Shown piece by piece: positions 9,027 through 26,099 of a stretch of 52,171 nucleotides of DNA. Source of the DNA: Paracoccaceae bacterium (GTDB lineage Bacteria > Pseudomonadota > Alphaproteobacteria > Rhodobacterales > Rhodobacteraceae). Positions within the stretch are counted from its first letter, which is position 1. Each line of letters begins with the position of its first letter. The notes under the pieces are model-generated. The model saw nothing but the letters and a program-made list of their open reading frames with translations, ran no database searches and was not told where the DNA came from. Both the position numbers and the translations under genes were made by a program. The DNA lies in contig JAHRVG010000016.1 in the NCBI GenBank assembly GCA_019090795.1, positions 1 to 52,171 on the forward strand, given 5' to 3'.

Positions 9027-11048
9027 TTATGGGGTGGGTGGGCCTATCAGATCGCGGGTATCTGCGCCAATATCCGGCACAGTGGCCGAAACGTTAACGG
9101 GGGTTTTATCAAACATGTAAGGCGCTGTAATAACGCAGTTTCCGCGTTTTTTCCCATGCTCATAAATCATCAGACCTTCGCGTTTGGCAACATTTAGGCC
9201 ATAGACCTCGTTCAGCTCCAGCATCTTAACGGCAGCCAGATTTTTTGCGTTCATTAGACGGATCACTTCGGCACAACTGCTGTTTTGCATTTGCTGGATT
9301 TCACCTGCATCCCCCTGCACCAAAACCCACCCATCAAGCGCCTGAACCACCGTGCTTGGCGGCAATACGGGGGCCCCATCGGGCCCACTTAACCCCACCA
9401 TCCACGCGACAGTATCATACATCGAAATATCAAGAACCGTGCCGGTGCCGCTGCGGCGCGCATCCCGCAAAGCGGCGATAATTTCAAGCGGGGCAATATG
9501 CGCCGCGGCCAGATCAGCAATCGAGAACCCGGCCTTGTTCGGGCCACTTTGCGTGACAATGCGCGAAATTACCCCTGCCTCGGCCTGAATGACTGTATCC
9601 AGCGCCGGACGGGTTGATCCGTTCATCCCATAACCGGAAATCCCGCAATAGATCAGCCGAGGATTGATCCGGTGCAGCACATCTGCCCCCATCCCCATCC
9701 GCTCCATCGCGCCGGCCTTTAGGTTGAACATCACAACATCCGCTGTTTTCACCAGTTCAAGGAAACTGTGTTTTTGCGCGGCGTTGCGCAAGTCCAGAAC
9801 CACCGATTTCTTACCGGCGTTATAATTGGCAAAATAACAACTGATCCCGTCAACCATCGGCACCCACAGGCGAGAATCCTCGCCGCAGGCGGGCTCTATC
9901 TTGATGACCTCCGCCCCCATATTTCCCAAGAACCGCCCGGCCAAAGGGCCCGCAGTATATGGACCGATTTCGAGTATCCGAACGCCAGAACAAGGCAAGG
10001 CTGGTGCTTCTTTGGCACGGCTGACAACCGGCGCACCCGACGTAAAGGCGGGGACGCGGCGACAGGGCACCGGCGTTCCCGATTTTGCAACCGTCCCCCA
10101 ATCAGCAACCGTGCCAGACGGGATACCGCGACTCTGCAAATGCTCTAATGCCTGTTTGGTGGTCACGCTTGCCGCCCATTGGGCAACGATCACATCCACC
10201 GCCTGCACATTGCCAATACGCGCGGCTGCCGTAGCAAAATCAGGCGCATTCGCCAGGTCAGGCTGGCCCATAATTTCCACCAGATCCAGCCAGTTCTGAT
10301 TGTTCGTCGTGCACAGGATAACCCAGCCATCGCTGGTTTGATACGCATTCCAAGGCGCCACCAAAGGATGTCTGCATCCGTTGCGAAACCCTTGGGCCTG
10401 ACCTGTCAGCACCTTGCCAAGAAATGTGCCCGTCAGGACAAAACATGTCTCGAACACGGCCATATCCAATAACTGACCCAGGCCTGAAACCTCTTTTAGG
10501 CGCAGGGCCGCAACGGCGGTTGTGGCGGCGTTCAGACCTGTGAACACCTCAAGGACTGGTACATCAACAACCGAAGGTCGCCCCGACACATCGCCGGTGG
10601 TGGCCAGCAATCCACTGATTGCCTGCATCTGGGCCTCGCTTGGATCAACCAAAGGTGGCTCATTCGTGGTTAGCCCAAAAGGCGACACAGCGCAGATAAT
10701 TTGACCGTCCCGATCAAGCCCGTCCAGAACTGCCCCGTTGGCACGTCCGTCCGCATCAAGCGGCAATGTAACAATGACGATATCCGCCTCTGCGGCAAGG
10801 GCCAGCCATTGCTGTGTTGCATCAGCCGTATCATCAAGATCAATCAGCCGACCGTGGGACGCAGCAAACGGATGCACGCGCCATTCCGCAGGCTCGTTTG
10901 GGAGCGGATCACTCGCCATGACCACACGACAAACCTCTGCCCCCAGATCGGCAAGCCGCCCGGCACAAACGCTCCCTGCCAGCCGCCCCACACGCTCAAC
11001 GACTTTCACACCATCAAGCGGGCCTTTATCTGGGGCGTTCTGTGTCAC
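9027..11048 (-). CDS. Tandem family III CoA-transferase, 673 aa, one half altered
   Basis: Seen: two CaiB/BaiF halves, about residues 10-330 and 353-625. The second half has the full motif set and catalytic D545 (ISMYD). In the first half the aligned position is glutamate (E200 in DMAVFE), and the N-terminal nucleotide-binding segment is less conserved, so that half may be structural. The C-terminus is shorter than in its neighbour. It is 21 nt after the acyl-CoA dehydrogenase and 23 nt before the other fused transferase, so all three are surely cotranscribed. Two different tandem transferases side by side suggest different substrates or a combined complex. Direction and substrates are unknown. 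Confidence 0.85.
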   Translation of the reverse strand: MTQNAPDKGPLDGVKVVERVGRLAGSVCAGRLADLGAEVCRVVMASDPLPNEPAEWRVHPFAASHGRLIDLDDTADATQQWLALAAEADIVIVTLPLDADGRANGAVLDGLDRDGQIICAVSPFGLTTNEPPLVDPSEAQMQAISGLLATTGDVSGRPSVVDVPVLEVFTGLNAATTAVAALRLKEVSGLGQLLDMAVFETCFVLTGTFLGKVLTGQAQGFRNGCRHPLVAPWNAYQTSDGWVILCTTNNQNWLDLVEIMGQPDLANAPDFATAAARIGNVQAVDVIVAQWAASVTTKQALEHLQSRGIPSGTVADWGTVAKSGTPVPCRRVPAFTSGAPVVSRAKEAPALPCSGVRILEIGPYTAGPLAGRFLGNMGAEVIKIEPACGEDSRLWVPMVDGISCYFANYNAGKKSVVLDLRNAAQKHSFLELVKTADVVMFNLKAGAMERMGMGADVLHRINPRLIYCGISGYGMNGSTRPALDTVIQAEAGVISRIVTQSGPNKAGFSIADLAAAHIAPLEIIAALRDARRSGTGTVLDISMYDTVAWMVGLSGPDGAPVLPPSTVVQALDGWVLVQGDAGEIQQMQNSSCAEVIRLMNAKNLAAVKMLELNEVYGLNVAKREGLMIYEHGKKRGNCVITAPYMFDKTPVNVSATVPDIGADTRDLIGPPTP

Positions 11049-13023: not shown

Positions 13024-13280
13024 GGGCTTCTCCTGTAACCATTTTTAACCATTCGCCAGCTATTGCCGTTTTTCCGTCTGCAAAAGTACTAAAACGCGAC
13101 GCAGGTGCGCAGCGCTAGGTAAAGGCACATTCCAGTAGACGGGACATGTTTCACTATGTAGACTTTACCAAGTTCGGATGTCAAACGGGATATTGACTGT
13201 CACAACAAATTGGCTGCCTTTATGGTAAGCATTATATCGGCAAAATCCCCGCAATTGCTTTGGAGGCAACAGGTAATCCA

Positions 13281-14555
13281 TTGACTACTCTAGATAAAAA
13301 TCAAAACCCGCATGAATCTCTTTTGGCGCTACTGACACAGGGAGAAGGCGATACCACCGGTTTGCCCCTAAGCAACGTGCTGATTGCCGACTTCAGCCGC
13401 CTGTTACCTGGCCCATGGAGCACCCAGCTTTTGTCCGACCTCGGCGCGACCGTGATCAAGATCGAGCGCCCCGGCAGCGGCGATATGAGCCGCGCCAACG
13501 CCCCGCATTTCAAGACCCGCAGCGTCTATTTCAATTCGGTCAACGGTGGCAAACACAGTGTCACGCTTGATTTGTCTTCTGACGAAGGACGCGCCATTGC
13601 CCACAAACTGATCGCCCAATCCGACGTGGTGGTCGAAAGCTTCCGACCTGGTGTGGCGAAAAAGCTCGATATTGATTACACCAAGGCCAAAGAACTGAAC
13701 GCGGGCATTGTTTATTGTTCGATCACAGGCTTTGGCCAGACTGGGCCATTGTCGCATATTTCTGGCCATGATCTGGTGATTCAGGCTTTGTCCGGCTTTG
13801 CCGGCCTTTCGGCGCAGGACGATAAAGCTCCAGATGTGCCCGGCTTTCAGGCGGCGGATTATGCCGGGGCCACAATGGCCGTCATCGGCATATTAGGCGC
13901 GTTGATCAAGCGCAAGAACACCGGCGAGGGCAGTAATCTGGATGTGGCCATGTTCGACAGCCTGTTTGCCATGTGCAACATTTCGCAGACCGCATCTATG
14001 TCCCGCAAGGTTGGCAATACCGGCACGCCGGGAATTGAGGTCTGGGGCGGCAATCCTCGCTATGCAACTTATCTGACGGCTGATAACAAAGCCGTCGCGG
14101 TGGCCTTGCTGGAGAAACGGCTGTGGGTGAATTTCTGTACGGCAATCGGTCGCGAAGACCTGATCGACCACGATGAGCGCCTTGAAGATCGCCACAGCGA
14201 TCATGGGGGCAAAGCTGCGGAATACCGTGCCGCCATTGCCGATTGTTGTCGCACTAAAAACCGGGATGAACTGATCGACGAAATGACCCGCCACGGCGTG
14301 CCCATGTGCCCGATCTATTCACCGGACGAGGCGCTCAACTCTGAAAATGTGGCAGGGCGTGGCCTGATTGAACATGCCAGCCACCCCGAGGAGGGCGACA
14401 TTCCCCAAATCGTGAACCCACTGGCCCTCTCGGGCCTTGCCCGCAGACACCGCCCGCACGCACCAGATGTTGGTGATGCAAACAGCGATGTTCTAAATGC
14501 GCTTGGCTTTGGTGGGGATGCCATTAAAAATCTGATCAAAAACGGAGTGATTTAA
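13281..14555 (+). CDS. CaiB/BaiF family III CoA-transferase
   Basis: Seen: about 424 residues, one domain, with LIADFSRLLPGPWSTQLLSDLGA, the conserved IVYCSITGFGQTGP segment, and catalytic Asp in LDVAMFD (residue 226). No ATG is available. TTG 13281 has AGG 7 nt upstream, with GGAGG further back; TTG 13260 is the other option. It is divergent from the SDR operon across a 257-nt region holding a degenerate TTTCAC element near 13148. The PrpD-family gene follows 5 nt after its stop, so the two are cotranscribed. Inference: activates or recycles a pathway acid. Substrate unknown. Confidence 0.88.
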   Translation: MTTLDKNQNPHESLLALLTQGEGDTTGLPLSNVLIADFSRLLPGPWSTQLLSDLGATVIKIERPGSGDMSRANAPHFKTRSVYFNSVNGGKHSVTLDLSSDEGRAIAHKLIAQSDVVVESFRPGVAKKLDIDYTKAKELNAGIVYCSITGFGQTGPLSHISGHDLVIQALSGFAGLSAQDDKAPDVPGFQAADYAGATMAVIGILGALIKRKNTGEGSNLDVAMFDSLFAMCNISQTASMSRKVGNTGTPGIEVWGGNPRYATYLTADNKAVAVALLEKRLWVNFCTAIGREDLIDHDERLEDRHSDHGGKAAEYRAAIADCCRTKNRDELIDEMTRHGVPMCPIYSPDEALNSENVAGRGLIEHASHPEEGDIPQIVNPLALSGLARRHRPHAPDVGDANSDVLNALGFGGDAIKNLIKNGVI

Positions 14556-14560
14556 CCGCC

Positions 14561-15904
14561 ATGCCAGCCCTGAAAAACGCCACTGCCCTTTCACAATACG
14601 TGTCTTCAACCATGACCCGCGACCTGCCCGAAGATGTGCTGGATGCGGCCCGCATGTGCCTTGCCGATTGGCTCGCTGTGCTGGTTGGTGCCCATGCGCA
14701 AGGGGCTGGCGTTGCGGTGCGCAAGGTCGCATCCGCATGGAATGCCCCGGGCAATGCGCCAATGTTTCAGAACGGCCGCCAATCCCCAATGGCGGCAGCG
14801 CTGGTGAACGGCACCTTTGCCCATTGCCTTGATTTCGACGATACCCATTTGGGCTGTCTTGCGCATCTCAGCGGCCCCACATGGGCGGCAACCCTTGCCA
14901 TGGCTTGCGAACTTGACAAATCGGACATGGAGGCGCTCAAGGCTTTTGTCACCGGATTTGAGGTAGGCGCGCGAGTAGGCGGACAGGATTTTGGCGAAAC
15001 CACCAATAAACGCGGCTTTCATTCGACATCTGTGATTGGACGGTTTTCAGCCACCGCCGCTGCCAGTGCCTTGATGGGACTAAGTGAGGGTCAGATAAGC
15101 AATGCCATGGGCGTCGCGGCCACCACTGCGGGCGGGTTGGTGGCCTCTTTTGGAACCATGTCAAAACCGTTTCATGCCGGCAAGGCCGCGATGGATGGCA
15201 TACTGGCCGCGCAGATGGGCGGGGCCGGTTTCGAAGCTGCCAAAGACCTGCTGGAAACCGATGGCGACACGCTTGCATCTGCCGTTGTGCAGAATCAGGA
15301 GGTTCGTATCCCGGCCCTTGATTTCAACACCGGATCCGAGCTGCACAACAACACATTCAAACCGTTTGCTGCCTGCCTGCTGGTGCATCCAACCGTTCAA
15401 AGCGCCCGCGACATTTACCAACAGATTGATGGTCGCAAGCTGCGTTCGGTCGTTGCCAGCATTCACCCGATGGTTTTGCGCTTTGCGGCTAAAACACAAG
15501 TGAATGAACCGCTCGAGGGCAAATTCTCGGTGGCCTATTGCGCAGCCCTTGGTCTTTGCGGATTTGACGCCTCGGAACAGGATTTCACACAGGACCGACT
15601 GGACAATGCCGAATTGCAGCGGTTGATGGACATGGTTGAAGTGGTCACTGACGAAAGCGAAACCAGCACCTCGGCCACGATGTTCGTCACATTTGAGGAC
15701 GGCAGCGAGATGACCATGCACACGCCGCTGGCCCCTGGAAATCCGGGAAATCCGCTTGGTTGGGACGGGATGGAGCGCAAATTCATGTCACTTGTCGAAC
15801 CCGTCTTTGGGGACCGCGCGCAGGAATTGTTCAATCTGGCCCGCACGGCTGGTTCAGGCGACAATCTTAAGCAGATCGCAGACATGCTTTCTGAGCAAGC
15901 GTAG
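14561..15904 (+). CDS. MmgE/PrpD family protein
   Basis: Seen: 447 residues spanning the family, with the all-helical N-terminal domain and the motif HCLDFDDTH (88-96). The GFHSTSVIGRFSATAAAS, SKPFHAGKA and later VHP segments are typical of MmgE/PrpD proteins. Known members are 2-methylcitrate dehydratase, cis-aconitate decarboxylase and iminodisuccinate epimerase, so the reaction is usually dehydration or decarboxylation of a polycarboxylic acid without an iron-sulfur cluster. It starts 5 nt after a CoA-transferase gene. Without the rest of a methylcitrate cycle here, PrpD proper is unlikely. Inference: handles a di- or tricarboxylic intermediate of the island's pathway. Confidence 0.88.
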   Translation: MPALKNATALSQYVSSTMTRDLPEDVLDAARMCLADWLAVLVGAHAQGAGVAVRKVASAWNAPGNAPMFQNGRQSPMAAALVNGTFAHCLDFDDTHLGCLAHLSGPTWAATLAMACELDKSDMEALKAFVTGFEVGARVGGQDFGETTNKRGFHSTSVIGRFSATAAASALMGLSEGQISNAMGVAATTAGGLVASFGTMSKPFHAGKAAMDGILAAQMGGAGFEAAKDLLETDGDTLASAVVQNQEVRIPALDFNTGSELHNNTFKPFAACLLVHPTVQSARDIYQQIDGRKLRSVVASIHPMVLRFAAKTQVNEPLEGKFSVAYCAALGLCGFDASEQDFTQDRLDNAELQRLMDMVEVVTDESETSTSATMFVTFEDGSEMTMHTPLAPGNPGNPLGWDGMERKFMSLVEPVFGDRAQELFNLARTAGSGDNLKQIADMLSEQA

Positions 15905-15990
15905 ACCTTTGGGGTTTGCAATATTTTGAAAGCCAACTGTACACCCACTCCCCCTTCCACATGGGTTTAAACGCTGATCGGGTGACCTAG

Positions 15991-16854
15991 ATGAAAAGCA
16001 CCATGATGGGGCTGATCTTTGCCCTTATCTGGTCCTCGGCTTATACGTCGGGGCGGATGATTGTCACAGATGCACCGCCACTGGCATCATTGGCGGTGCG
16101 GTTTTTGATCGCCGGTATATTGGCGGTGATACTCGCGCGCCTAATGAGGCAGACGTGGCGGTTAACCCGCGATCAATGGCGTGCCACCTTTGTTTTCGGG
16201 ATATGCCAGAATGCCCTGTGCTTAGGGCTGAATTTCATTGCAATGCAAACTGTCGAGGCCTCGGTTGCGGCTATTATTGCCTCGACCATGCCGCTGATGG
16301 TGGCCTTTTCCGGGTGGGTGTTTTTCCGGGATCGCCTGCCGAGGGGGGCAATTGCCGGGTTGTTTGCCGGGGTTGTCGGTGTGGGCATCGTTATGTTCGC
16401 ACGGATTGAGGCCGGCGTTGATATTTACGGTATTGCACTCTGCGGGCTTGGCACGGTGGCGCTGACCGTCGCAACACTGGCAATGCGCGGGGCCTCAAGC
16501 GGTGGCAATTTGATGATGGTTGTCGGCCTTCAGATGCTGGTTGGGGCAGCTGCTTTGGCCGTTGCTTCGGCTTGGCTTGAAGTGATCGAGGTAAACTGGA
16601 CATGGCGAATGGGCACAGCAATGATCTATACCATACTGGTGCCAAGTTTACTGGCGACTTGGATCTGGTTTGCGCTGGTAGCACGGATCGGGGCAGTGCG
16701 TGCGGTCACATTTCATTTTCTGAACCCGTTTTTCGGCGTGGCGATTGCCGCCGTGTTACTGGGCGAAAAACTGGGGGCAATGGACATTCTCGGCGTGGCC
16801 ATTATTGCCGGTGGTATTTTGGCGGTGCAATTGGCCAAGCGCGCACCTGGATAA
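15991..16854 (+). CDS. EamA/DMT-family transporter
   Basis: Seen: 287 residues with ten hydrophobic helices in two EamA repeats. The first starts with LIFALIWSSAYTSGRMIVTDAPPLA-like sequence and the second holds LVARIGAVRAVTFHFLNPFFGVAIA, a typical EamA second-repeat motif. It is 86 nt after the PrpD-family gene and converges with the ThDP gene 13 nt away. Members export amino acids, metabolites or toxic intermediates. Inference: exporter or safety valve of the island; it could also be unrelated. Confidence 0.88.
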   Translation: MKSTMMGLIFALIWSSAYTSGRMIVTDAPPLASLAVRFLIAGILAVILARLMRQTWRLTRDQWRATFVFGICQNALCLGLNFIAMQTVEASVAAIIASTMPLMVAFSGWVFFRDRLPRGAIAGLFAGVVGVGIVMFARIEAGVDIYGIALCGLGTVALTVATLAMRGASSGGNLMMVVGLQMLVGAAALAVASAWLEVIEVNWTWRMGTAMIYTILVPSLLATWIWFALVARIGAVRAVTFHFLNPFFGVAIAAVLLGEKLGAMDILGVAIIAGGILAVQLAKRAPG

Positions 16855-16867
16855 ACTCCAGCGGCCC

Positions 16868-18457
16868 CTAGCCCCTAAGGGCGGCCACCTGTGCGCTATA
16901 AACGCTGGCATCAATCGCTACATCAACCAAGGCCGGCCCGTCATGCGCAAAGGCCGCTTTCATCGCGCCCTCCAAATCATCCGAGGCCCCAACACGCCAG
17001 GCCGAAACCCCCATTGCCTCGGCGACCTGGGCAAAATCAACCGCAGAAAACTTGACGCCAGCGGTCGGCAGGCTTTGCCATTGCTGCTTAATGTCAATCA
17101 ACGAAAGGGCCGAGTCATTCAGCACCACAGTGATCACCTTCAGGCCATGTTCAGCGGCGGTACTCAACTCGGAAATGCACATCATCAAGCCGCCATCGCC
17201 CGTCACCGCAACGGCGGGAATATCCGGATCATTCAAGGCCGAAGCAATGGCCGCAGGAAGCGCATAGCCCATGCTGGAAAGCCCGTTGGATTTAAGCACC
17301 CCAAAGGGGTGATCGGCCTCAAGCTCGGACATCGCCGAGACCATATGCGCGCCCGCATCGACACTGGCCCTGATCCGCTCGGGCGCGGTGGCTACAATGG
17401 CTTGGGTCACAGAATGTGCCGTATGGCCATTGCTTTTAACTGCCACCCTGTTGCGGATTTCGGATTTGAGGGCAGCAATCCTGTCGGGCGTCCATTGCGA
17501 ACGGGTGCCAGTGCTGCAAAGCGCATCGGCGATGGTGGCAAGCGGGCCGATGATACGCAACGTTGGTTCGGTCAGCATTTGTGGCATGTCCGAAGCGCGA
17601 ATTTCAAGGATCGGCGCATCACTGTGCCACGGGCTGGCGATGAATTCGACAGGGTCCACGCCAAAGGTCACGATCAGGTCGGCCTCATTGATCGCCTTGA
17701 ACTCACTGACTGCGCCGGTGAACATACCCGTCATCCTAGGATTGCCATCAGGAACGACACCCTTGGCCTTATAGGTTGAAAATACGGGGCAATTCATCGC
17801 TTCGGCCAGCCGCAAAGCTGCGGCAGGCGCATCGCCGTATCGCGCCTCTAGCCCAACCAAAAGCACAGGCTTTTGCGCGGCTTTCAGCATCGGGCGCGCC
17901 TTTTCAATATCCGCTTCAGCCGTAAATACTGGCGGTTTTCGGGTGATCTGAGATTTGCCTTCGCTGATCTGGCTGGCTGCCCCAGCAGCATTGATATTCA
18001 TCTGCACCGGGCCAAGAGGCGCATCGGTTGCTAGGCAAAGCGCATCCTCAATGTCGGCAACGGCACCTTGAGGGGAAAATAGCCCCTGATGCTTGCTGAT
18101 TGGGGCAAACAGGGCGTTTTGGTCATAGCGCTGATGCAGCGACACGGCAGGGCCGTCGGTCAACACCAACATCGGAGCCTGTTCGAGGCTGGCATAAGCG
18201 GTGCCCGTGGTAAGGCTGGATGCCCCCGGCCCGAGGCAGGCCAGCACCACACCGGGTGCGCCGGATAATTCGCCTGTTACTGCCGCCATGATAGAGGCCG
18301 ACATTTCGCTGCGTGCGAGGATGAAATCTATGCCCACAGCACGCGCGGCTTCGATGATCGGCAGGGCCGACCCGCCGCCGGGCACGCCGAAAATGCGCTT
18401 GATGTCGTGGCGCTGAAAACCTTCGATCAGCGCCTGTGCCAGAGTTTGCTCGGTCAT
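16868..18457 (-). CDS. Thiamine diphosphate-dependent enzyme (acetolactate synthase/decarboxylase-like)
   Basis: Seen: 529 residues in the usual three-domain order. The N-terminal pyrimidine-binding domain has the activating glutamate E51 (ARSEMSA), the middle domain is Rossmann-like, and the C-terminal domain holds the ThDP/Mg motif from GDGG (420-423) to VVLND about 25 residues later. It lacks any match I can place to a specific decarboxylase. The stop of the upstream rraA-like gene is followed at once by this start (1 nt apart), so the two are translated together. Family chemistry is decarboxylation or carboligation of 2-oxo acids. Inference: acts on an oxo acid made by the RraA-type aldolase or feeding it. 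Confidence 0.88.
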   Translation of the reverse strand: MTEQTLAQALIEGFQRHDIKRIFGVPGGGSALPIIEAARAVGIDFILARSEMSASIMAAVTGELSGAPGVVLACLGPGASSLTTGTAYASLEQAPMLVLTDGPAVSLHQRYDQNALFAPISKHQGLFSPQGAVADIEDALCLATDAPLGPVQMNINAAGAASQISEGKSQITRKPPVFTAEADIEKARPMLKAAQKPVLLVGLEARYGDAPAAALRLAEAMNCPVFSTYKAKGVVPDGNPRMTGMFTGAVSEFKAINEADLIVTFGVDPVEFIASPWHSDAPILEIRASDMPQMLTEPTLRIIGPLATIADALCSTGTRSQWTPDRIAALKSEIRNRVAVKSNGHTAHSVTQAIVATAPERIRASVDAGAHMVSAMSELEADHPFGVLKSNGLSSMGYALPAAIASALNDPDIPAVAVTGDGGLMMCISELSTAAEHGLKVITVVLNDSALSLIDIKQQWQSLPTAGVKFSAVDFAQVAEAMGVSAWRVGASDDLEGAMKAAFAHDGPALVDVAIDASVYSAQVAALRG

Positions 18458-18458
18458 G

Positions 18459-19130
18459 TCAGATATTCCTGTATTTTGCCATGGCTTCGCTAAAACTCAG
18501 CCCGTTTTTCATGTCGGCCATAGCCGCATCATCGCCGCGCTGGCATTTCTCGGCAAATTGCACCACGGCCTCGGCCTGCGCATGGGGGATGGCAATAACG
18601 CCAGTGCCATCGCCAACCATAATATCACCGGGATTGACCAGTACACCACCCACTGAAATCGGAACATTGATCGCCTCCACCTTCAGTCGGCTGCGCCCCG
18701 TAGTGGGCACTATATGGCGGCTGAAAACGTCAAACCCGAACGCCACCATTTCCTCAAAATCGCGAACCGCTCCGTCAACGACAAGGCCCCGAACGCCTTT
18801 GAGTTTAGCCGCATAGCTGGCCATGCCGCCCCATGTGGAATAGCGGCAACCCGCCCCGTCAATAACGATAACATCGCCACGTCTTGCCGCGTCGATCATT
18901 GCGCCAACAGCAAAATCAGCCGAGGTAAAGCTGCCCGGCGCGCCCACCGATAGCTTTACGGTAATGGCCGGCCCGCATAGCGCAACCCCTTGGGCCACGC
19001 CGGAAATACCCTCCATCACGTTGTGAAACAGCCCGACTTCGTCAAATGCGTTGGCAAATGTACCGGTCGCAATCGGTGCAATCCGTGCCAGCAGCGCCGC
19101 GTTTGGGCGGGTAATGTCTGCCTGATCCAA
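18459..19130 (-). CDS. RraA/HMG-aldolase family protein
   Basis: Seen: 223 residues with the RraA fold motifs GGMASYAAK and VVDGAVRD. R123 and D124 match the metal- and substrate-binding Arg-Asp of 4-hydroxy-4-methyl-2-oxoglutarate/4-carboxy-4-hydroxy-2-oxoadipate aldolases. NPGDIMVGDGTGVIAIP is the second family signature. True RraA (RNase E inhibitor) is about 160 residues and lacks the longer C-terminus, so a catabolic aldolase or oxaloacetate-decarboxylase role fits better. It is divergent from the BadI-like gene and translationally joined to a ThDP enzyme. Products of such an aldolase would be pyruvate plus an oxo acid. Substrate is inferred only by family. Confidence 0.85.
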   Translation of the reverse strand: MDQADITRPNAALLARIAPIATGTFANAFDEVGLFHNVMEGISGVAQGVALCGPAITVKLSVGAPGSFTSADFAVGAMIDAARRGDVIVIDGAGCRYSTWGGMASYAAKLKGVRGLVVDGAVRDFEEMVAFGFDVFSRHIVPTTGRSRLKVEAINVPISVGGVLVNPGDIMVGDGTGVIAIPHAQAEAVVQFAEKCQRGDDAAMADMKNGLSFSEAMAKYRNI

Positions 19131-19213
19131 TCCATTTCTCCTTTGTGCGCCCTGTTCAGGCCGGTTTGAACACTGATTGTGGGGGGGAAACAGAAGACTG
19201 TCAATAAAATGAT

Positions 19214-19223
19214 ATGCGTTTCA
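19214..19223 (-). promoter_or_regulatory. TGAAACGCAT element in the rraA/badI divergent promoter (site C)
   Basis: The minus strand reads TGAAACGCAT, identical to the core of the sites before dctP and the hydratase/lyase operon. It lies 84 nt from the rraA-like start and 79 nt from the badI-like start, so one site could serve both. Only one half of the palindrome is well conserved. Confidence 0.45.
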
Positions 19224-19301
19224 CATTGTGGAATGCGGTGGTATTTGCTAGGCACGGCTGCAACGAACAGCAACGATTGCAAACAAAGAAGGAAGCCTCG
19301 A

Positions 19302-20102
19302 ATGGACTATGAAGACTTGATATATGATGTGACCAACATGGTTGCGACGATCACCATCAACCGACCGGAACGGATGAATGCTTTTCGGGTGAATACGTAT
19401 TTTGAAATGATCGACGCATTGACCACGGCGGGCTGGGACGAAGACGTAGCCGTAATCGTTATCACCGGTGCGGGGGGACGTGCATTTGGTGTGGGTGGCG
19501 ATTCTGGCGATAAAAAATCCGGACGCGCGACACGTGGCACTCTCGGAGTTCCGGTCGAGGAAATTCATTCCCTGATCCGCGATACCCCCAAGCCGGTGAT
19601 AGCCAAAGTGAACGGGTTTGCCATTGGTGGCGGGAACGTAATGGCCACAATTTGTGATATGACAATTTGTTCGGATAAATCCGTGTTTGGGCAGGTTGGC
19701 CCCAAAGTTGGCTCGGTTGATCCGGGTTTCGGGACAGCATATTTATCGCGCATCGTTGGCGAAAAGAAAGCCCGCGAAATCTGGTATATGTGCCGCCGAT
19801 ATTCTGCGCAGGAAGCGCTGGAAATGGGGCTGGTCAACAAGGTGGTCCCCGAGGCTGATTTGGATGCAGAAGTTGATCAATGGTGTGCCGAAATCGTCGA
19901 GCGTAGCCCGACCGCCATCGCCATCGCCAAACGTTCATTCAATGCCGATAGCGAGAACATCAAGGGAATTGCCAACATGGGCTTTCAAACGGTGGCGCAT
20001 TATTATGCCACAGATGAAGCCAAAGAAGGTGGCAATGCGTTTCGCGAGAAGCGCAAACCGGATTTCCGTGGTGCTCTAAAGAAAAGCAAGGCGGCCAAGT
20101 AA
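19302..20102 (+). CDS. badI: BadI-like 2-ketocyclohexanecarboxyl-CoA hydrolase (crotonase fold)
   Basis: Seen: 266 residues. N-terminal YEDLIYDV, INRPERMNAF, GGGNVMATICD, FGQVGPKVGSVDPGFGTAYL (129-148) and EKKAREIWYMC strongly resemble BadI and its relative MenB. The two hydratase glutamates are replaced (V113, G133), as in those enzymes, while D140 of the VGSxD motif is kept. BadI hydrolyses the ring of 2-oxocyclohexanecarboxyl-CoA to pimeloyl-CoA. MenB is disfavoured because no menaquinone genes are near and the N-terminus fits BadI. ATG 19302 has AAGGAAG upstream; the open frame extends back to 19179 without support. The divergent gene is rraA-like and a shared operator candidate sits between. 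Inference: ring-opening step of the island's pathway. Confidence 0.78.
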   Translation: MDYEDLIYDVTNMVATITINRPERMNAFRVNTYFEMIDALTTAGWDEDVAVIVITGAGGRAFGVGGDSGDKKSGRATRGTLGVPVEEIHSLIRDTPKPVIAKVNGFAIGGGNVMATICDMTICSDKSVFGQVGPKVGSVDPGFGTAYLSRIVGEKKAREIWYMCRRYSAQEALEMGLVNKVVPEADLDAEVDQWCAEIVERSPTAIAIAKRSFNADSENIKGIANMGFQTVAHYYATDEAKEGGNAFREKRKPDFRGALKKSKAAK

Positions 20103-20321: not shown

Positions 20322-21074
20322 ATGTCAAAACCAACGGTCACTGGGGTTGAGCGGGTTCTAGATATTTTCGAATCTTTTCAGGAACATAAGGTGCCAATGT
20401 CCATGACAGATCTGGCCGATATGACCGGAATCCCCAAAAGTACATGCCATGCTATTCTCACTACCCTTCAGAAAAGGGGCTACGTCTATTCTCTGAATCG
20501 ACCTCGGGCCCATTATCCCACCAATCGCCTGTATGATGTTGCGTCAGAAATCAGAAAGAATGACGTTTTTGTGCGCCGCGCCACGCCGCTGATGGAAAAA
20601 TTGCGGGATATAACCGGCGAAACCTTGATCCTCGGGAAAAGGCAGGGAGACGAAGCCATTTATTTGCAAGTTGTGGAGGGCTCGCACTCGATACGGTATT
20701 CCGCGAAAATCGGTGATTTGAAACCGCTCCATTCCAGCGCAATAGGCAAAGCTATGTTGGGGAGTACAGGATTGGCTGAGCTTGAAGCGTTTATTCAGGA
20801 TAACAATTTTGCAAAAGTAACAAACTCCACAATAACAGATCCTGCTGCGTTGGTCGAAGAAATCCAAAAATCTAAAAAACTGGGGTACTTCAAGACCTGC
20901 GGCGAAAATGTGAGCGACGTTTGGGCTATTTCGGTATCTATCGTAGTAGGATCGGATGTGTTTGCCATGGCAGTTGCCGGCCCCAAAAATCGTATGGCGA
21001 ACTTTCCGGATGAGCACTTGCAGTTGTTGATTGGCTCCTGCTCGGCCTTTTCCAATACAGCCAACACTGCCTGA
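20322..21074 (+). CDS. IclR-family transcriptional regulator (second)
   Basis: Seen: 250 residues. The winged helix-turn-helix covers about 7-65 (MSMTDLADMTGIPKSTCHAILTTL), and the effector domain includes the IclR segments ETLILGKRQGDEAIYL, PLHSSAIGKAML and AISVSIVVG. It differs clearly from the first IclR protein (1750-2508). It is 169 nt upstream of the mutase operon on the same strand, with AT-rich repeats and a large palindrome in between. Inference: controls the mutase operon in response to a pathway acid. Confidence 0.92.
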   Translation: MSKPTVTGVERVLDIFESFQEHKVPMSMTDLADMTGIPKSTCHAILTTLQKRGYVYSLNRPRAHYPTNRLYDVASEIRKNDVFVRRATPLMEKLRDITGETLILGKRQGDEAIYLQVVEGSHSIRYSAKIGDLKPLHSSAIGKAMLGSTGLAELEAFIQDNNFAKVTNSTITDPAALVEEIQKSKKLGYFKTCGENVSDVWAISVSIVVGSDVFAMAVAGPKNRMANFPDEHLQLLIGSCSAFSNTANTA

Positions 21075-21243: not shown

Positions 21244-22023
21244 GTGAACAACGCAGATCAAATCCTCGTCTCGGAACGTTTTACTGGTGCAAGTTGGGTC
21301 ACCATTAACCGTCAGGAAAAGCACAACGCGTTAAGCGAAGCTGTTTTGAATGAACTAACTGCAACAATCGCGGCACTGGGCAAAAGGCCCGAAGTAAAAT
21401 GCATTGTCCTAACCGGCGCGTCCGACAGATACTTTGCTGCCGGCGGAGATCTTGCAGCACTGGCCCTTGTGCGCGATACAGCTGACGTTCTTGAAATGAC
21501 CGATAAATCCCGCGCCGCTCTGGATACAATCCGGAACTGTGAGGTGCCGGTCATTGCTTTGCTGAACGGCAGCGCAATCGGGGGAGGGGCCGAGCTGGCC
21601 CTATCCTGCGACATGCGAATGCAACGGCAGGGCGTTAAGATTGGCTATATTCAGGCAAAACTGGGGATCACCTCAGCTTGGGGTGGCGGTGTTGACTTGA
21701 TCCAGTTGGTCGGCTCTTCGCGCGCCGTAAGGATGATGAGCCGATGCGAATTGATTGATGCGGAAACTGCACTTGCTTGGGGTCTGGCCGACAAGATTGT
21801 CGGGCCGCAAGACCCGGAAAAAGACATCAAAGATTTCCTTGAGCCAATTTTGGCAACGCCGCGACAGGTGTTGCTGGGCATCAAGGCACAGGCCCGTGCG
21901 TTCCGGCAGGGTGACACCTATTCCGAACGGCGCTTAGTTGAGCAACAGCACCTTGTCAAAACATGGCTGCATCAGGACCATTGGGACCGAGCAGAGAACC
22001 TATTATCGGGGAAAAAGAAATGA
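21244..22023 (+). CDS. Crotonase-fold protein, possible acyl-CoA decarboxylase
   Basis: Seen: 259 residues starting at GTG with AGGA 8 nt upstream. The oxyanion motif GGGAE is intact (E117), but the second hydratase glutamate, 20 residues on, is Gln137 (YIQAKLG). Downstream it has the ITSAWGGG segment, reminiscent of the PSWGG segment of the ethylmalonyl/methylmalonyl-CoA decarboxylase ECHDC1. Loss of the second Glu argues against a standard hydratase. It is the first gene of an operon with a B12 acyl-CoA mutase, a CoA-transferase and a MeaB GTPase, overlapping the mutase gene by 4 nt. That gene set parallels E. coli scpA-argK-scpB-scpC, where the crotonase-fold member ScpB decarboxylates methylmalonyl-CoA. 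Inference: decarboxylates the mutase product. An isomerase or hydrolase is possible. Confidence 0.85.
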   Translation: MNNADQILVSERFTGASWVTINRQEKHNALSEAVLNELTATIAALGKRPEVKCIVLTGASDRYFAAGGDLAALALVRDTADVLEMTDKSRAALDTIRNCEVPVIALLNGSAIGGGAELALSCDMRMQRQGVKIGYIQAKLGITSAWGGGVDLIQLVGSSRAVRMMSRCELIDAETALAWGLADKIVGPQDPEKDIKDFLEPILATPRQVLLGIKAQARAFRQGDTYSERRLVEQQHLVKTWLHQDHWDRAENLLSGKKK

Positions 22024-23639
22024 CTGCCAATACCGAAAAGGGAAAGGTCGCCGCGCCCGAAATGCATGGCACAAACCGAAGCGGGGTCGATATTCCGATC
22101 AGTGTTCCCGCCTACGCCGTTGATCCGAAAAATATCGGCGAGCCGGGGGAATACCCGTTTACCCGCGGCATTTTCCCAAATGGGTATCGCGGGCGGTTGT
22201 GGACGATCCGTCAGTATTCCGGTTTTGGCACCGCCGAGGAATCAAACGAGCGCTACAAGTTTTTGCTTGAGAAAGGGCAAACGGGGCTTTCGGTGGCGCT
22301 TGATCTGCCAACACAAGTCGGTCTGGACCCGACCCATCCAATGGCCAAGCCCGAAATCGGCAAGGTTGGCGTTTCGCTGTCCAATTTAAGCGAAGCCGAG
22401 ATTTTGTTTGACGGTATTGATCTGTCAAAGATCTCGACATCCTTTACTATCAACGGCAGCGCTGCGATCATTTATGCAATGTATCTGGCCGTTGCCGACA
22501 AACAGGGTGTGCCGCGCGAAAAGCTGACCGGCACAATTCAGAACGACATTTTGAAAGAATACGTAGCCCGCGGCACATGGATTTTTCCGGTGCGCCCGTC
22601 AATGCGACTGATCGCGGATTCGATCCTATATTCCAATGCGACCACGCCCCGTTTTAATCCGATCAGCATAGCGGGCGCCCATATGCGAGATGCCGGATCA
22701 ACCGCCGCCGAGGAAATGGGCTATACTCTGGCCAACGGTCTGGCATATGTCGATGAATTGCAACGTCGCGGCGGTAACATCGAGAAATTCGCCAAACGGC
22801 TATCATTCTTCTTTTATGTCCACATGGATTTATTCGAAGAAGTTTCCAAATTCCGCGCCGGGCGCCGTATCTGGGCGAAAAAGATGAAAGAGCGCTATGG
22901 GGTGATGGACCCCAAGGCACAGCATTTCCGTTTTGGCGTGGTCTGTGGCGGCTCTTCTTTGATTGCCCCGCAACCGTATAATAACATTGCCCGCGTCACC
23001 ATCGAAACCATGGCCGCAGTGATGGGCGGTGCGCAATCTATTTTCACCTGCGCCTTTGACGAGGCTTTTCAGATCCCAACCGAAACCTCAGCGGAACTTG
23101 CGCTGCGCACACAACAGATTATCGCCTTTGAAAGCGGAATCGGCGCTTCCGTTGATCCGCTGGGCGGCAGTTATTTTGTCGAGGAACAGACCGACAGGAT
23201 GGAAGAGGAAATCCTGAAAGTGATGGAAGAAATTGACGAATACGGCGGCGTTGAGAAGGCCATAGAGGAAGGCTGGATTCAGCAGCGGCTGGCTGAACGT
23301 GGGCTGGAGCGCAAAGTAAACACCGATAGCGGCTATAATGTTGTGGTTGGTCAAAATCATTTTGCCAAGCAGGACGAAGAGATAAAGGTGGGCGAGGTGT
23401 TCTCGCTTGATCCGACTGTTGCGGCACGCGCACTTGAGAAATTTGAAAAACTGAAAGACCGCCGAAATCAAGCTGAGGTAGACACATCGCTAGCCCGCCT
23501 AAGTAAGGCCGCCGCCAGTGATAGCGAAAATGTTATGCCCTATCTGGTCGATTGTTGTCACGCCTACGCAACTGTGGGCGAAATGGTGGCCTGTCTCAAA
23601 AATGAATGGGGTGAATTCAGGGAGCCGGTGAACCTATGA
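22020..23639 (+). CDS. B12-dependent acyl-CoA mutase, large (substrate-binding) subunit
   Basis: Seen: 539 residues from ATG 22020, overlapping the previous stop as ATGA. Only the TIM-barrel part of methylmalonyl-CoA mutase is present; the cobalamin domain is the separate next gene, as in isobutyryl- and 2-hydroxyisobutyryl-CoA mutases. Aligning with P. shermanii mutase at a constant offset of 23 gives Y66 (Tyr89), R184 (Arg207) and H221 (His244). The Tyr/Arg pair holds the free carboxylate in methylmalonyl-CoA mutase and is replaced in the mono-acid mutases. The residue before the His is Ala220 in place of Tyr243 (AGAHM for SGYHM), which should enlarge the pocket. Inference: rearranges a substituted succinyl-CoA-type substrate to a malonyl-CoA type or the reverse. 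Confidence 0.9.
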   Translation: MTANTEKGKVAAPEMHGTNRSGVDIPISVPAYAVDPKNIGEPGEYPFTRGIFPNGYRGRLWTIRQYSGFGTAEESNERYKFLLEKGQTGLSVALDLPTQVGLDPTHPMAKPEIGKVGVSLSNLSEAEILFDGIDLSKISTSFTINGSAAIIYAMYLAVADKQGVPREKLTGTIQNDILKEYVARGTWIFPVRPSMRLIADSILYSNATTPRFNPISIAGAHMRDAGSTAAEEMGYTLANGLAYVDELQRRGGNIEKFAKRLSFFFYVHMDLFEEVSKFRAGRRIWAKKMKERYGVMDPKAQHFRFGVVCGGSSLIAPQPYNNIARVTIETMAAVMGGAQSIFTCAFDEAFQIPTETSAELALRTQQIIAFESGIGASVDPLGGSYFVEEQTDRMEEEILKVMEEIDEYGGVEKAIEEGWIQQRLAERGLERKVNTDSGYNVVVGQNHFAKQDEEIKVGEVFSLDPTVAARALEKFEKLKDRRNQAEVDTSLARLSKAAASDSENVMPYLVDCCHAYATVGEMVACLKNEWGEFREPVNL

Positions 23640-24052
23640 ACATGAACACATCTGAAAATGTGCTTAAGGGCACAAGAATTCTGGTCGGAAAACCTGGCCT
23701 TGACGGGCATGACATCGGCGCAAAGATCATCGCGCTGGCCCTGCGCAATGCCGGGGCCGAGGTGATCTATACCGGCCTGCGCAGAAGCCCCGAACAGATC
23801 GCCAGAGTGGCGGTTGACGAAGGGGTTAACGCCATCGGCCTAAGCATTCTGTCGGGCAGCCACAAAGAGCTGGTACCCGATGTTATGGAACGGCTGCGCG
23901 CGGCCGGACTGGGGGGTGTGGCAGTTTTTGTTGGCGGCACAATTCCGCTGGAGGATCAGCCTTATCTGAAAGAAGTGGGCGTTACAGACATATTCACCGC
24001 CGATATGCCGCTAGCAGATGTTGTCAGCAGTATTGCCAGGACATTGGCATGA
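23636..24052 (+). CDS. B12-binding small subunit of the acyl-CoA mutase
   Basis: Seen: 138 residues forming a single cobalamin-binding domain. It has the base-off motif LDGHDIG, whose His coordinates cobalt, then SILSGSHKELV and FVGGTIP, typical of the B12 Rossmann fold in mutases. The length matches the small subunits of isobutyryl- and hydroxyisobutyryl-CoA mutases. It overlaps the large-subunit stop and the next start by 4 nt each (ATGA), which favours equal synthesis. Together with the large subunit it makes the holoenzyme using adenosylcobalamin. Confidence 0.95.
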   Translation: MNMNTSENVLKGTRILVGKPGLDGHDIGAKIIALALRNAGAEVIYTGLRRSPEQIARVAVDEGVNAIGLSILSGSHKELVPDVMERLRAAGLGGVAVFVGGTIPLEDQPYLKEVGVTDIFTADMPLADVVSSIARTLA

Positions 24053-25176
24053 ACGCACCTCTTGCAGGTATAAGAATTGTTGAAGTTGGCCATATGTTGG
24101 CAGGTCCCTATTGCGCGATGATGCTGGCAGATCTGGGGGCCGAAATCATCAAAATTGAATCGCCTCCGCACGGCGATATCGGCCGCACCGTCAGCCCGCA
24201 TGATATCGGCGATCACAACGCCTATTTCGCAAGTCTGAACCGCAACAAGAAAAGCGTGATGCTTGATCTGGCCAGCAAAGAGGGGCAGGCGGATTTGGCG
24301 CGTATCGTCAAATCGTCTCAGGCGCTGATAACCAACCTGCGGCCTTCGGCCATTCGTAAACTGGGGCTAACGTATGACGCGCTGAAACAACACAATCGCG
24401 CGCTGGTCTGTGTTTCGTTGACCGGTTACGGGCTGGAAGGACGGTATTCCGATAATCCGGCCTATGACTATATCATCCAGGCCTTGACTGGCGTTATGGC
24501 GCTTACGGGTGATCCATCTGCGCCGCCGACCAAAGCGGGGTATTCGGCGGTTGATAACTCCGCAGGGCTGGTTGCGGCAATTGGGTTATTGGCAAAGATT
24601 GTGCAGGGACAGGGTGGTCAGGTCGATGTAGCCATGTACGACGTGATGCTGTCTCAGCTCAATTATCTTGCCGGTGCTGTTTTGAATGCCAATGAGAGAA
24701 TGGAGCGAATTCCAGATTCTTCTCACCCCTATATTGTGCCCGCGCAAGTTTTTTGTACCGCCAAAGGCTGGCTTGCATTGTTCATCACGCATGATAATTT
24801 CTGGAAGAAATTCTGCACAGAAATTGGCAGGCCGGAATGGGTAGAAGCCCCCAAATTCGCAACAATGGCACAGCGTCGCGAAAATCGAGAGTTTGTGGTT
24901 TCTCAGATCGGGGACATCCTGCAAACCAAACCGGCAAAAGAATGGGTTCAGCGCCTTCAGCCGCTTGGTGTTGTCGCCGCAGAAATCATTACACTGAGTG
25001 ACGCTCTTTCAAGTGATATTGCGGCATCGAGATCCCTTGTGACGCCGCTGGGCGATGGGTCATTACCCTTGCGGGCAATTGCCAGCCCGATAAAGTTTAC
25101 TGACTTTACGCCGACCTATGATCTGCCACCATTGTTGAACCAGCACAGCACAGAGATTTTGGGAAAGGTTGGTTGA
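24049..25176 (+). CDS. CaiB/BaiF family III CoA-transferase of the mutase operon
   Basis: Seen: 375 residues, a full single domain, with IRIVEVGHMLAGPYCAMMLADLGA at the N-terminus, VCVSLTGYGLEG and catalytic D198 (DVAMYD). It starts inside the stop of the small mutase subunit and its own stop overlaps the MeaB-type start. The E. coli Scp operon also contains a CoA-transferase, though from family I. Inference: it loads CoA on the mutase substrate acid, taking it from the decarboxylated acyl-CoA or from succinyl-CoA, so the operon could run as a CoA-neutral cycle. Confidence 0.9.
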   Translation: MNAPLAGIRIVEVGHMLAGPYCAMMLADLGAEIIKIESPPHGDIGRTVSPHDIGDHNAYFASLNRNKKSVMLDLASKEGQADLARIVKSSQALITNLRPSAIRKLGLTYDALKQHNRALVCVSLTGYGLEGRYSDNPAYDYIIQALTGVMALTGDPSAPPTKAGYSAVDNSAGLVAAIGLLAKIVQGQGGQVDVAMYDVMLSQLNYLAGAVLNANERMERIPDSSHPYIVPAQVFCTAKGWLALFITHDNFWKKFCTEIGRPEWVEAPKFATMAQRRENREFVVSQIGDILQTKPAKEWVQRLQPLGVVAAEIITLSDALSSDIAASRSLVTPLGDGSLPLRAIASPIKFTDFTPTYDLPPLLNQHSTEILGKVG

Positions 25177-26099
25177 GTTTGGAACCATTAAATCGCTACG
25201 CGTTAGGACAAAAGCTAACTCAGTTAGCCAGTGCAGATCCGTTGACATTTGTTCAGGACGGGGCAGGGTTGGATCATTCAGGAGCCCGCCGGGTTGCCCT
25301 AACGGGGGCACCTGGGGCGGGGAAAAGCTCTTTGCTTGCGCAACTGGTTGGGTTGCGTTCACAGACAGGGAACCGCTTGGGCATTTTGGCAATTGACCCC
25401 AGCAGCCCAAAAAACGGCGGCGCAATTTTGGGTGACCGGATTCGCATGGACGATCTCGAGGAAAACGATAATATTTATATCCGCTCGCTTGGTTCCCGGA
25501 CTGCCGGGGACGGGCTGGCTGACAATCTCTACGAGATGATGAACACAATGGACGAACATCATTTTGACGAAGTGTTCGTTGAAACAGTCGGGGTTGGGCA
25601 GGTTGGGTATGGCGCGCGAGAACTGGTTGATACGGTCGTGCTGGTTGTTATTCCTGAAAGCGGTGACATGGTGCAGGCGATGAAATCCGGCATCTCGGAG
25701 ATGGCCGATATTATCGTTGTCAACAAGGCTGATTTGCCTGGTGCCAGAAAAATGCTGAATGATATTAATCATATAGCATCGGTTAACCCAAGTTGCAGCG
25801 ACGATAACAGTTGGGTGACACCCGTTATGCTGGTTTCAAACAAAAGCCCCGATTATGTTGCCGAGCTTTCCCGCAACATTGATGCCCATCAGGCCTTTAT
25901 TGCAGGGCAACAGACCGGAAGGGCGCGTAAAGTTGCGCGCGCACGCTATCGCTTGCAACAGGTTGTTGACCAACAGCTTGCCAAGCTGATCTCGCAGACG
26001 TCAGATGAATTTTTTGCAGCCCCCTTAAACCGTCAAGTTTCGACAATTCTTGCACAGTTGCATGACTTTCAAACCATCCAAACGGGGGACACCTCGTGA
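25173..26099 (+). CDS. MeaB/ArgK-type G-protein chaperone for the acyl-CoA mutase
   Basis: Seen: 308 residues from TTG 25173, which overlaps the upstream TGA. P-loop GAPGAGKS (45-52), the MeaB-family segment LAIDPSSPKNGGAILGDRIRM, RSLGSR, the Walker B region VFVETVGVGQ and the NKAD guanine motif are all present. Family role: GTP-dependent loading and protection of adenosylcobalamin on the mutase. Its place as last gene of the mutase operon fits exactly. The C-terminal dimerisation arm seems slightly short and divergent, perhaps matched to the split mutase. No clear terminator follows. Confidence 0.93.
   Translation: MSLEPLNRYALGQKLTQLASADPLTFVQDGAGLDHSGARRVALTGAPGAGKSSLLAQLVGLRSQTGNRLGILAIDPSSPKNGGAILGDRIRMDDLEENDNIYIRSLGSRTAGDGLADNLYEMMNTMDEHHFDEVFVETVGVGQVGYGARELVDTVVLVVIPESGDMVQAMKSGISEMADIIVVNKADLPGARKMLNDINHIASVNPSCSDDNSWVTPVMLVSNKSPDYVAELSRNIDAHQAFIAGQQTGRARKVARARYRLQQVVDQQLAKLISQTSDEFFAAPLNRQVSTILAQLHDFQTIQTGDTS

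Follow-up and report, generated by a model that had tools for sequence, protein, structure and literature searches.

A rare five-gene operon of a Paracoccaceae bacterium carries a separate clade of split B12-dependent acyl-CoA mutase and may serve the breakdown of substituted succinates

A 52,171-nucleotide stretch from a Paracoccaceae bacterium (assembly GCA_019090795.1, contig JAHRVG010000016.1, positions 1 to 52,171), referred to here as the window, contains a compact operon built around a split, adenosylcobalamin (AdoCbl)-dependent acyl-coenzyme A (CoA) mutase. Five genes lie in a row on the + strand at positions 21244-26099, listed here with their Pfam matches and expectation values (E):

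21244..22023, + strand: crotonase-fold protein, predicted to decarboxylate a substituted malonyl-CoA (PF00378, E 1.3e-39)
22020..23639, + strand: B12-dependent acyl-CoA mutase, large (catalytic) subunit, of a separate clade (PF01642, E 9e-189)
23636..24052, + strand: cobalamin-binding small subunit of the mutase (PF02310, E 7.9e-21)
24049..25176, + strand: family III (CaiB/BaiF) CoA-transferase (PF02515, E 2e-104)
25173..26099, + strand: MeaB-type GTPase, chaperone of the mutase (PF03308, E 7.3e-60)

These open reading frames (ORFs) and families bear out the makeup and order given in an earlier note on this DNA. The genes overlap by 4 bases at each of the four junctions (ATGA, ATGA, ATGA and TTGA in gene order), and the TTG start of the MeaB gene was assigned from its overlap with the CoA-transferase gene. 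In base composition the operon (0.531) is no different from the window (0.542), and no RNA family was found in the window between positions 18000 and 30000.

The same gene order was sought in other genomes, as the earlier note had proposed. An orthologous mutase was found at 14 other loci (L007-L010, L014-L016, L018-L022, L098 and L092), 13 of which were judged for gene set, with L092 left out as cut by a contig end. The same five genes occur in the same order in 11 of the 13, which are not fully independent because L009/L010 and L020/L021 are close pairs. The loci span Alpha-, Beta- and Gammaproteobacteria and several are plasmid-borne, with named carriers including plasmids of Diaphorobacter, Paraburkholderia, Sulfitobacter and Marinobacter. 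Identity to the window by tblastn is 71-81% for the large subunit, 61-74% for the small subunit and 55-75% for the CoA-transferase, and is lowest for the crotonase (38-54%) and MeaB (39-50%). Carriers are scarce. In the window's own order the mutase was found at E <= 1e-150 in 1 of 292 genomes, the source genome itself, and a scan of the phylum at E <= 1e-170 returned 4 of 398 genomes with the source genome counted. In the order of G664, the genome that holds L008, 17 of 399 genomes pass E <= 1e-140, three of them with a mutase of this clade (G664, G766 and a partial copy in G937). A scan of named genomes gave four loci with mutases 78-80% identical; among plasmids, seven of 421 matching records show 72-81% identity, and the record after these drops to 51%. 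The plasmid sample holds five of the seven clade records, a further two (H2 and H3) being left out. The five-gene arrangement is a real and rare module, beyond chance.

The module appears to move between lineages. The window mutase stands among betaproteobacterial rows in the tree (100/99) and is rare in its own order, two observations that suggest horizontal transfer. The mutase of L007, a record titled Singulisphaera, also groups with betaproteobacterial rows, so that transfer or a mis-binned contig is likely there. As separate observations that fit mobility, the Marinobacter copy (L022) is flanked by IS5, IS630 and IS21 genes, and the Sulfitobacter stretch (L019) holds an IS256 transposase.

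The large subunit was placed in trees with methylmalonyl-CoA mutase (MCM), ethylmalonyl-CoA mutase (ECM)-like, 2-hydroxyisobutyryl-CoA mutase (HCM) and pivalyl-CoA mutase (PCM) rows, with Xaut_5021 standing for HCM and Xaut_5043 for PCM. A haloarchaeal Natrinema row (Phe/Gln at positions 89 and 207) stood in for isobutyryl-CoA mutase (ICM), and the trees were built without the authentic Aromatoleum aromaticum IaaG, a characterised IcmA or the alkylsuccinate mutases of alkane degraders. The first tree had two long-branch joins and was rebuilt without the row own_C26 and with more ECM-like rows. In the resulting 47-row tree, the 13 clade rows group together at 100/100, and MCM (100/100), ECM-like (100/100), HCM (100/99) and PCM (100/100) rows form separate groups. 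In a 57-row tree with added Burkholderiales, from which six rows were left out (L082, L084, L086, L087, L088 and the partial L092), the clade has 14 rows at 100/100, apart from 14 MCM rows (100/100) and from six ECM-like rows (100/100), which fall elsewhere. A larger group (95/98) unites the window clade with HCM, PCM, the haloarchaeal row and a clade of three rows, L090, L093 and L094. By this sequence comparison, the window large subunit is in none of the named mutase clades placed, an outcome in favour of the earlier note, which had called for this tree comparison.

The three-row clade (100/100) is called putative IaaG, the mutase subunit of the indoleacetate (iaa) pathway, because its gene clusters fit an iaa operon, with genes for an acyl-CoA dehydrogenase, small subunit, mutase, molybdenum hydroxylase, ligase and thiolase; the label comes from this gene context. 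It comes from three Burkholderiales genomes and is itself poorly sampled, and it has Asn at positions 114 and 287. The mutase of L029, on a Shinella plasmid, is of a different type (Val89/Gln207), in a clade sister to HCM, and its operon holds an aminotransferase, MeaB, a crotonase and an AMP-ligase alongside the mutase.

The pocket residues, numbered as in the Propionibacterium shermanii enzyme, set the clade apart as well. Tyr89, Ser114, Thr195, Gln197, Arg207, His244, Arg283 and Glu370 are retained. Tyr89 and Arg207, which bind the substrate carboxylate in MCM, are present in all 14 clade rows and likewise in the MCM and ECM-like rows, whereas HCM has Ile/Gln and PCM Leu/Asn at these positions; ICM has Phe/Gln. 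Five residues of the MCM rows (Tyr243, His328, Gln330, Thr331 and Asn366) are changed: Ala243, Gly328, Val330 and Cys331 are each found in 14 of 14 rows, and position 366 is Cys in 12 of 14 and Ala in L015 and L079. Gly78 and Leu117 are further changes relative to MCM rows. In the 47-row set, Ala243 and Val330 occur in none of the 34 other mutases; Gly328 is also found in six ECM-like rows, which have Arg361, Ala362 and Pro366 compared to Gln361, Ser362 and Cys or Ala at 366 in the window clade. The changes at 330 and 366 are of note because both positions contact the adenosyl group in MCM. The loss of Tyr243, along with the changes at 328, 330, 331 and 366, suggests a substrate bulkier than succinyl- or methylsuccinyl-CoA, as judged from the aligned residues. 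The substrate is probably a substituted succinate, given an intact carboxylate pocket alongside altered residues at position 243 and around it.

The residues at 89 and 207 also bear on the suggestion in the earlier note that the mutase is split as in isobutyryl- and hydroxyisobutyryl-CoA mutases. The split itself holds, the best PDB match is HcmA (4r3u, 504 bits), and the clade belongs to the loose group with HCM- and PCM-type rows. The hint at an isobutyryl or hydroxyisobutyryl substrate does not hold: that substrate was rejected given Tyr/Arg at 89 and 207, the clade is separate, and operons of that type use AMP-ligases rather than family III transferases. A mutase of this type set among unrelated neighbours is thus most improbable. 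Split subunits are not diagnostic, because the Ilyobacter and Acetoanaerobium mutases are also split, yet keep every MCM active-site residue.

Another Sbm cycle, which would convert succinate to propionate or methylsuccinate to butyrate, is distinctly unlikely. The earlier note had likened the set to that of Escherichia coli, and scpA, argK, scpB and scpC do encode the matching functions; Tyr89 and Arg207 are also retained, which speaks for such a cycle. However, six positions kept in MCM are changed (78, 243, 328, 330, 331 and 366, plus 117), the clade is separate at 100/100, and the source genome already has an MCM and an ECM-like mutase. In its 141 contigs there are five MM_CoA_mutase genes, of which, by residues and tree, C30 is MCM, C11 is ECM-like and C98 is PCM-like. 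Plain succinate is less likely because these MCM and ECM-like genes are present and the pocket differs. The residues of C98 (L003/L077) are as in the Xanthobacter Xaut_5043 protein.

A substituted succinate of aryl or benzyl type, handled as (2-aminophenyl)succinate is by IaaL and IaaGH, would be an aromatic special case of the substituted-succinate reading. Such chemistry is already known, with a family III CoA-transferase (IaaL), the IaaGH mutase and oxidative decarboxylation by IaaF acting on (2-aminophenyl)succinate (PMC8360864). In the best tree the window clade pairs with putative IaaG; His328 and Gln330 are absent from both, and Cys366 is mostly common to them. Ala243 would free about one phenol ring of room. 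The pairing is weak (59/79), however, and putative IaaG (Tyr243, Ile328, Ala/Gly330, Gly331, Cys366) keeps Tyr243 and does not share Ala243. In addition, the iaa partners seen at L097 (molybdenum hydroxylase, flavin adenine dinucleotide (FAD) subunit and decarboxylating-type acyl-CoA dehydrogenase) do not adjoin the mutase gene, either in the window or in those related loci that were examined. An aryl-succinate is an unlikely, if serious, alternative. IaaGH itself finds no support, since the window mutase lies outside the putative IaaG clade in the tree.

The remaining mutase partners carry the expected motifs. The small subunit has the cobalamin motif DxHxxG, in the form DGHDxG, in 13 of 13 aligned sequences. 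The transferase belongs to family III on two sequence marks, the PF02515 fold family and a catalytic Asp: the Asp of AVDNS, TVDNS or VVDNS is present in 12 of 12 and lines up with that of family III transferases of solved structure. No equivalog cut-off was reached by the transferase, with succinate-glutarate CoA-transferase at 222.8 of 750 bits. The MeaB protein has its GTPase motifs (GAPGAGKS, ETVG and NKAD) and scores 206.7 bits against TIGR00750, below the cut-off of 240.75.

The possibility, raised in the earlier note, that the crotonase-fold protein is an ordinary enoyl-CoA hydratase was checked against the two catalytic Glu residues of that enzyme, which are 144 and 164 in rat enoyl-CoA hydratase numbering. 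In all 13 aligned crotonases the first Glu is retained, as residue 117 in GGGAE (GGGGE in one case), and Gln stands in place of the second, at residue 137. An ordinary hydratase is therefore unlikely and was set aside as disfavoured, again in favour of the earlier note. A hydrolase or isomerase that acts after the mutase, instead of a decarboxylase, is a minority possibility that we consider improbable. Single-Glu crotonases catalyze diverse reactions, and no characterized family was matched above its cut-off; among the best 25 of 73 crotonase family matches, PRK11423, the ScpB family (cut-off 257 bits), does not appear, and E. coli ScpB is 27% identical to the window protein over 168 residues. 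A PDB profile search with the crotonase alignment gave enoyl-CoA hydratase/isomerase and naphthoate-synthase entries, with none named decarboxylase among the best 60 of 68. Against the hydrolase or isomerase reading, the known parallels, ScpB and IaaF, need a decarboxylase for a productive mutase step, and the GGGAE motif matches that of ECHDC1, a (m)ethylmalonyl-CoA decarboxylase described with a highly conserved Glu in GGGAEFTT (PMC6717113). By analogy, and from pathway logic, the window crotonase is predicted to act as decarboxylase on a substituted malonyl-CoA.

Taken together, the operon probably serves the catabolism of a dicarboxylic acid of the substituted-succinate type that the cell imports. 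From the gene order, its conservation, the mutase clade, the residue patterns and the neighbouring genes, we infer this substrate class and each of the following reactions. The family III CoA-transferase would load CoA onto the acid, with succinyl-CoA or the acyl-CoA product of the pathway as donor, or by moving CoA between the two carboxyl groups. The self-contained cycle suggested in the earlier note would call for the product as donor and is one possibility among these; for IaaL, the relevant characterised enzyme of family III, more than one mode of transfer is reported (PMC8360864). Next, the split AdoCbl mutase, its activity maintained by the MeaB GTPase, would move the CO-SCoA group onto the adjacent carbon, the one with the free carboxylate, such that an R-succinyl-CoA becomes an (R-methyl)malonyl-CoA. 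Finally, the crotonase-fold protein would remove CO2 from this malonyl-CoA ester, leaving a 3-substituted propionyl-CoA that can enter beta-oxidation. An IclR regulator and uptake genes, of the tripartite ATP-independent periplasmic (TRAP) or tripartite tricarboxylate transporter (TTT) type, would complete the unit.

Two genes just upstream of the operon are relevant to this proposal:

20322..21074, + strand: IclR-family regulator, probably of the operon (PF01614/PF09339)
19299..20102, + strand: BadI-like ring hydrolase, a possible pathway partner and a lead only (TIGR03210, 408.6 bits, below the cut-off of 467.6)

An IclR relative, 41-56% identical, directly adjoins the crotonase gene in 9 of the 13 other loci, and the gene at 20322-21074 probably regulates the operon. 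TRAP or TTT genes lie within 5 kb in 10 of the 13 loci (L007, L008, L015, L016, L018-L022 and L098), and in the window itself TRAP genes lie 15 kb upstream of the operon; these transporter genes fit an imported dicarboxylate. L009 and L010 have as neighbours an ATP-binding cassette (ABC) binding protein, an isopenicillin-N-synthase-type oxygenase, a short-chain dehydrogenase/reductase (SDR), an aldehyde dehydrogenase and a Baeyer-Villiger-type flavoprotein. Four of these five (binding protein, oxygenase, SDR and aldehyde dehydrogenase) have counterparts of 73-80% identity next to the Diaphorobacter copy. Sets of this kind, with oxygenase, SDR and aldehyde dehydrogenase, could introduce the substrate's second carboxylate.

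The BadI-like gene, 1.1 kb upstream of the crotonase gene, raises a further alternative, in which an alicyclic 1,2-dicarboxylate of the hexahydrophthalate type would be activated, rearranged to a 1,1-dicarboxyl-CoA and then decarboxylated to cyclohexanecarboxyl-CoA for ring cleavage by BadI. The same island holds an acyl-CoA dehydrogenase and an SDR that scores best against BadH (203.1 of 431.2 bits). At E <= 1e-100, three of eight whole genomes that carry the mutase clade (G000, G475 and G664) have BadI-like genes, compared to 10 of 149 others. However, this link across genomes is weak: five of the eight have no BadI-like gene at that threshold, and the source genome (G000), from which the idea came, is among the three positives, leaving two of seven without it. 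The window BadI, SDR and dehydrogenase are all below their curated cut-offs, the BadI-like genes of G664 and G475 are on contigs other than that of the mutase operon, and the BadI-like gene is not adjacent to the operon in the other loci examined. No paper on hexahydrophthalic acid with CoA was found in the open-licence literature. The alicyclic route is accordingly very unlikely.

Other neighbours were recorded in passing. An organic-acid island at 13260-20102, beside the operon, holds genes for a family III CoA-transferase, an MmgE/PrpD protein, an EamA transporter, a thiamine-pyrophosphate-dependent (acetolactate-synthase-like) enzyme, an RraA/aldolase and the BadI-like protein. Two ORFs of 719 and 673 amino acids at 6844-9003 and 9027-11048 (- strand), each with two PF02515 stretches, adjoin a TRAP transporter, an acyl-CoA dehydrogenase and an SDR, in what appears to be another acid-degradation unit. 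Just upstream of the operon copy in Diaphorobacter sp. HDW4B (L018, 1-6573) are MeaB, an AMP-ligase and a branched-chain-type ABC transporter, resembling the Xaut_5034-5042 neighbourhood; this record has a second mutase match besides the operon copy.

Several findings weigh against the proposal of a module for imported substituted succinates. L014 is without the family III CoA-transferase in its 18 kb, where the downstream genes encode an AMP-ligase, a P450 and a thiolase, and the AMP-ligase perhaps provides an alternative activation of the acid; L098 has no MeaB match in its 11.5 kb. No TRAP or TTT gene was found in the stretches examined of L009, L010 and L014, the first two of which carry an ABC binding protein instead, and no single substrate is indicated because gene neighbourhoods vary between loci. 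Tyr243 to Ala is not a general mark of bulky substrates, because putative IaaG, with a likely bulky substrate, keeps the Tyr. For the crotonase, no NCBIfam equivalog cut-off was reached among the best 25 of 73 families (best 136.2 compared to 253 bits) and the structure model is poor (mean predicted local distance difference test score, pLDDT, 64.1), so that the decarboxylase assignment draws on the motif and pathway logic.

With these points considered, it is about an even call whether the mutase represents a new AdoCbl acyl-CoA mutase class for bulky 2-substituted succinyl-CoAs, with a remodelled substrate and adenosyl pocket (Ala243, Gly328, Val330, Cys331 and Cys366) and packaged with its own transferase, GTPase chaperone and new crotonase-fold malonyl-CoA decarboxylase. 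Such a mobile module would convert substituted succinates to straight, beta-oxidizable acyl-CoAs without a dehydrogenase for the decarboxylation step. There are not many AdoCbl acyl-CoA mutases, and every class known so far has led to a pathway: for propionate, ethylmalonyl, tert-butyl compounds and indoleacetate. A distinct clade whose pocket is rebuilt in a consistent manner, tied to a transferase and to a crotonase that is not of hydratase type, suggests an unassigned route for substituted succinates. Annotation pipelines label clade members methylmalonyl-CoA mutase and the operon crotonases enoyl-CoA hydratase. The residue set makes the fit of larger substrates in such mutases directly testable, and the operon is compact enough for transfer and assay as one unit.

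The earlier note knew of no described operon with this makeup, and none was found in the open-licence literature, a scope outside which most subscription papers lie. The same literature gave no paper on pivalyl-CoA mutase, and a search on the pocket residues turned up nothing on mutases of this kind. The E. coli Sbm operon, scpA-argK-scpB-scpC, likewise joins a mutase, a MeaB-type GTPase, a crotonase-fold decarboxylase and a CoA-transferase, and it carries out CoA transfer, mutase shift and decarboxylation with succinate (PMC5391575). ScpA differs in being a single chain, the gene order is also different, and ScpB belongs to a dedicated decarboxylase family (PRK11423, 487.2 bits, cut-off 257). 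ScpC matches TIGR03458 (752.9 bits, cut-off 658.7) whereas the window transferase is of family III (PF02515), in agreement with the statement in the earlier note that the two are of different families. The operons of HcmAB and pivalyl-CoA mutase share the split mutase with MeaB, but they encode AMP-type ligases in place of a CoA-transferase and lack a crotonase gene, and their mutases form separate clades that differ at residues 89 and 207. ECHDC1 is also of crotonase type with GGGAE around a conserved Glu, a likeness of motif, and differs in being a mammalian repair enzyme (PMC6717113).

The IaaL-IaaGH-IaaF system of Aromatoleum aromaticum likewise has a family III transferase, a split B12 mutase acting on a substituted succinyl-CoA and loss of the malonyl carboxylate, and both intramolecular CoA transfer and transfer with succinate are reported for IaaL; it differs in that decarboxylation by IaaF is oxidative, by an acyl-CoA dehydrogenase (PMC8360864). 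The putative iaa mutases differ further in having their own clade, the retained Tyr243, and molybdenum-hydroxylase, ligase and dehydrogenase genes as neighbours. In their logic, Sbm and iaa are the closest parallels known. By analogy with both systems, the operon would join activation and mutase steps of the iaa type to a non-oxidative decarboxylation of the Sbm type.

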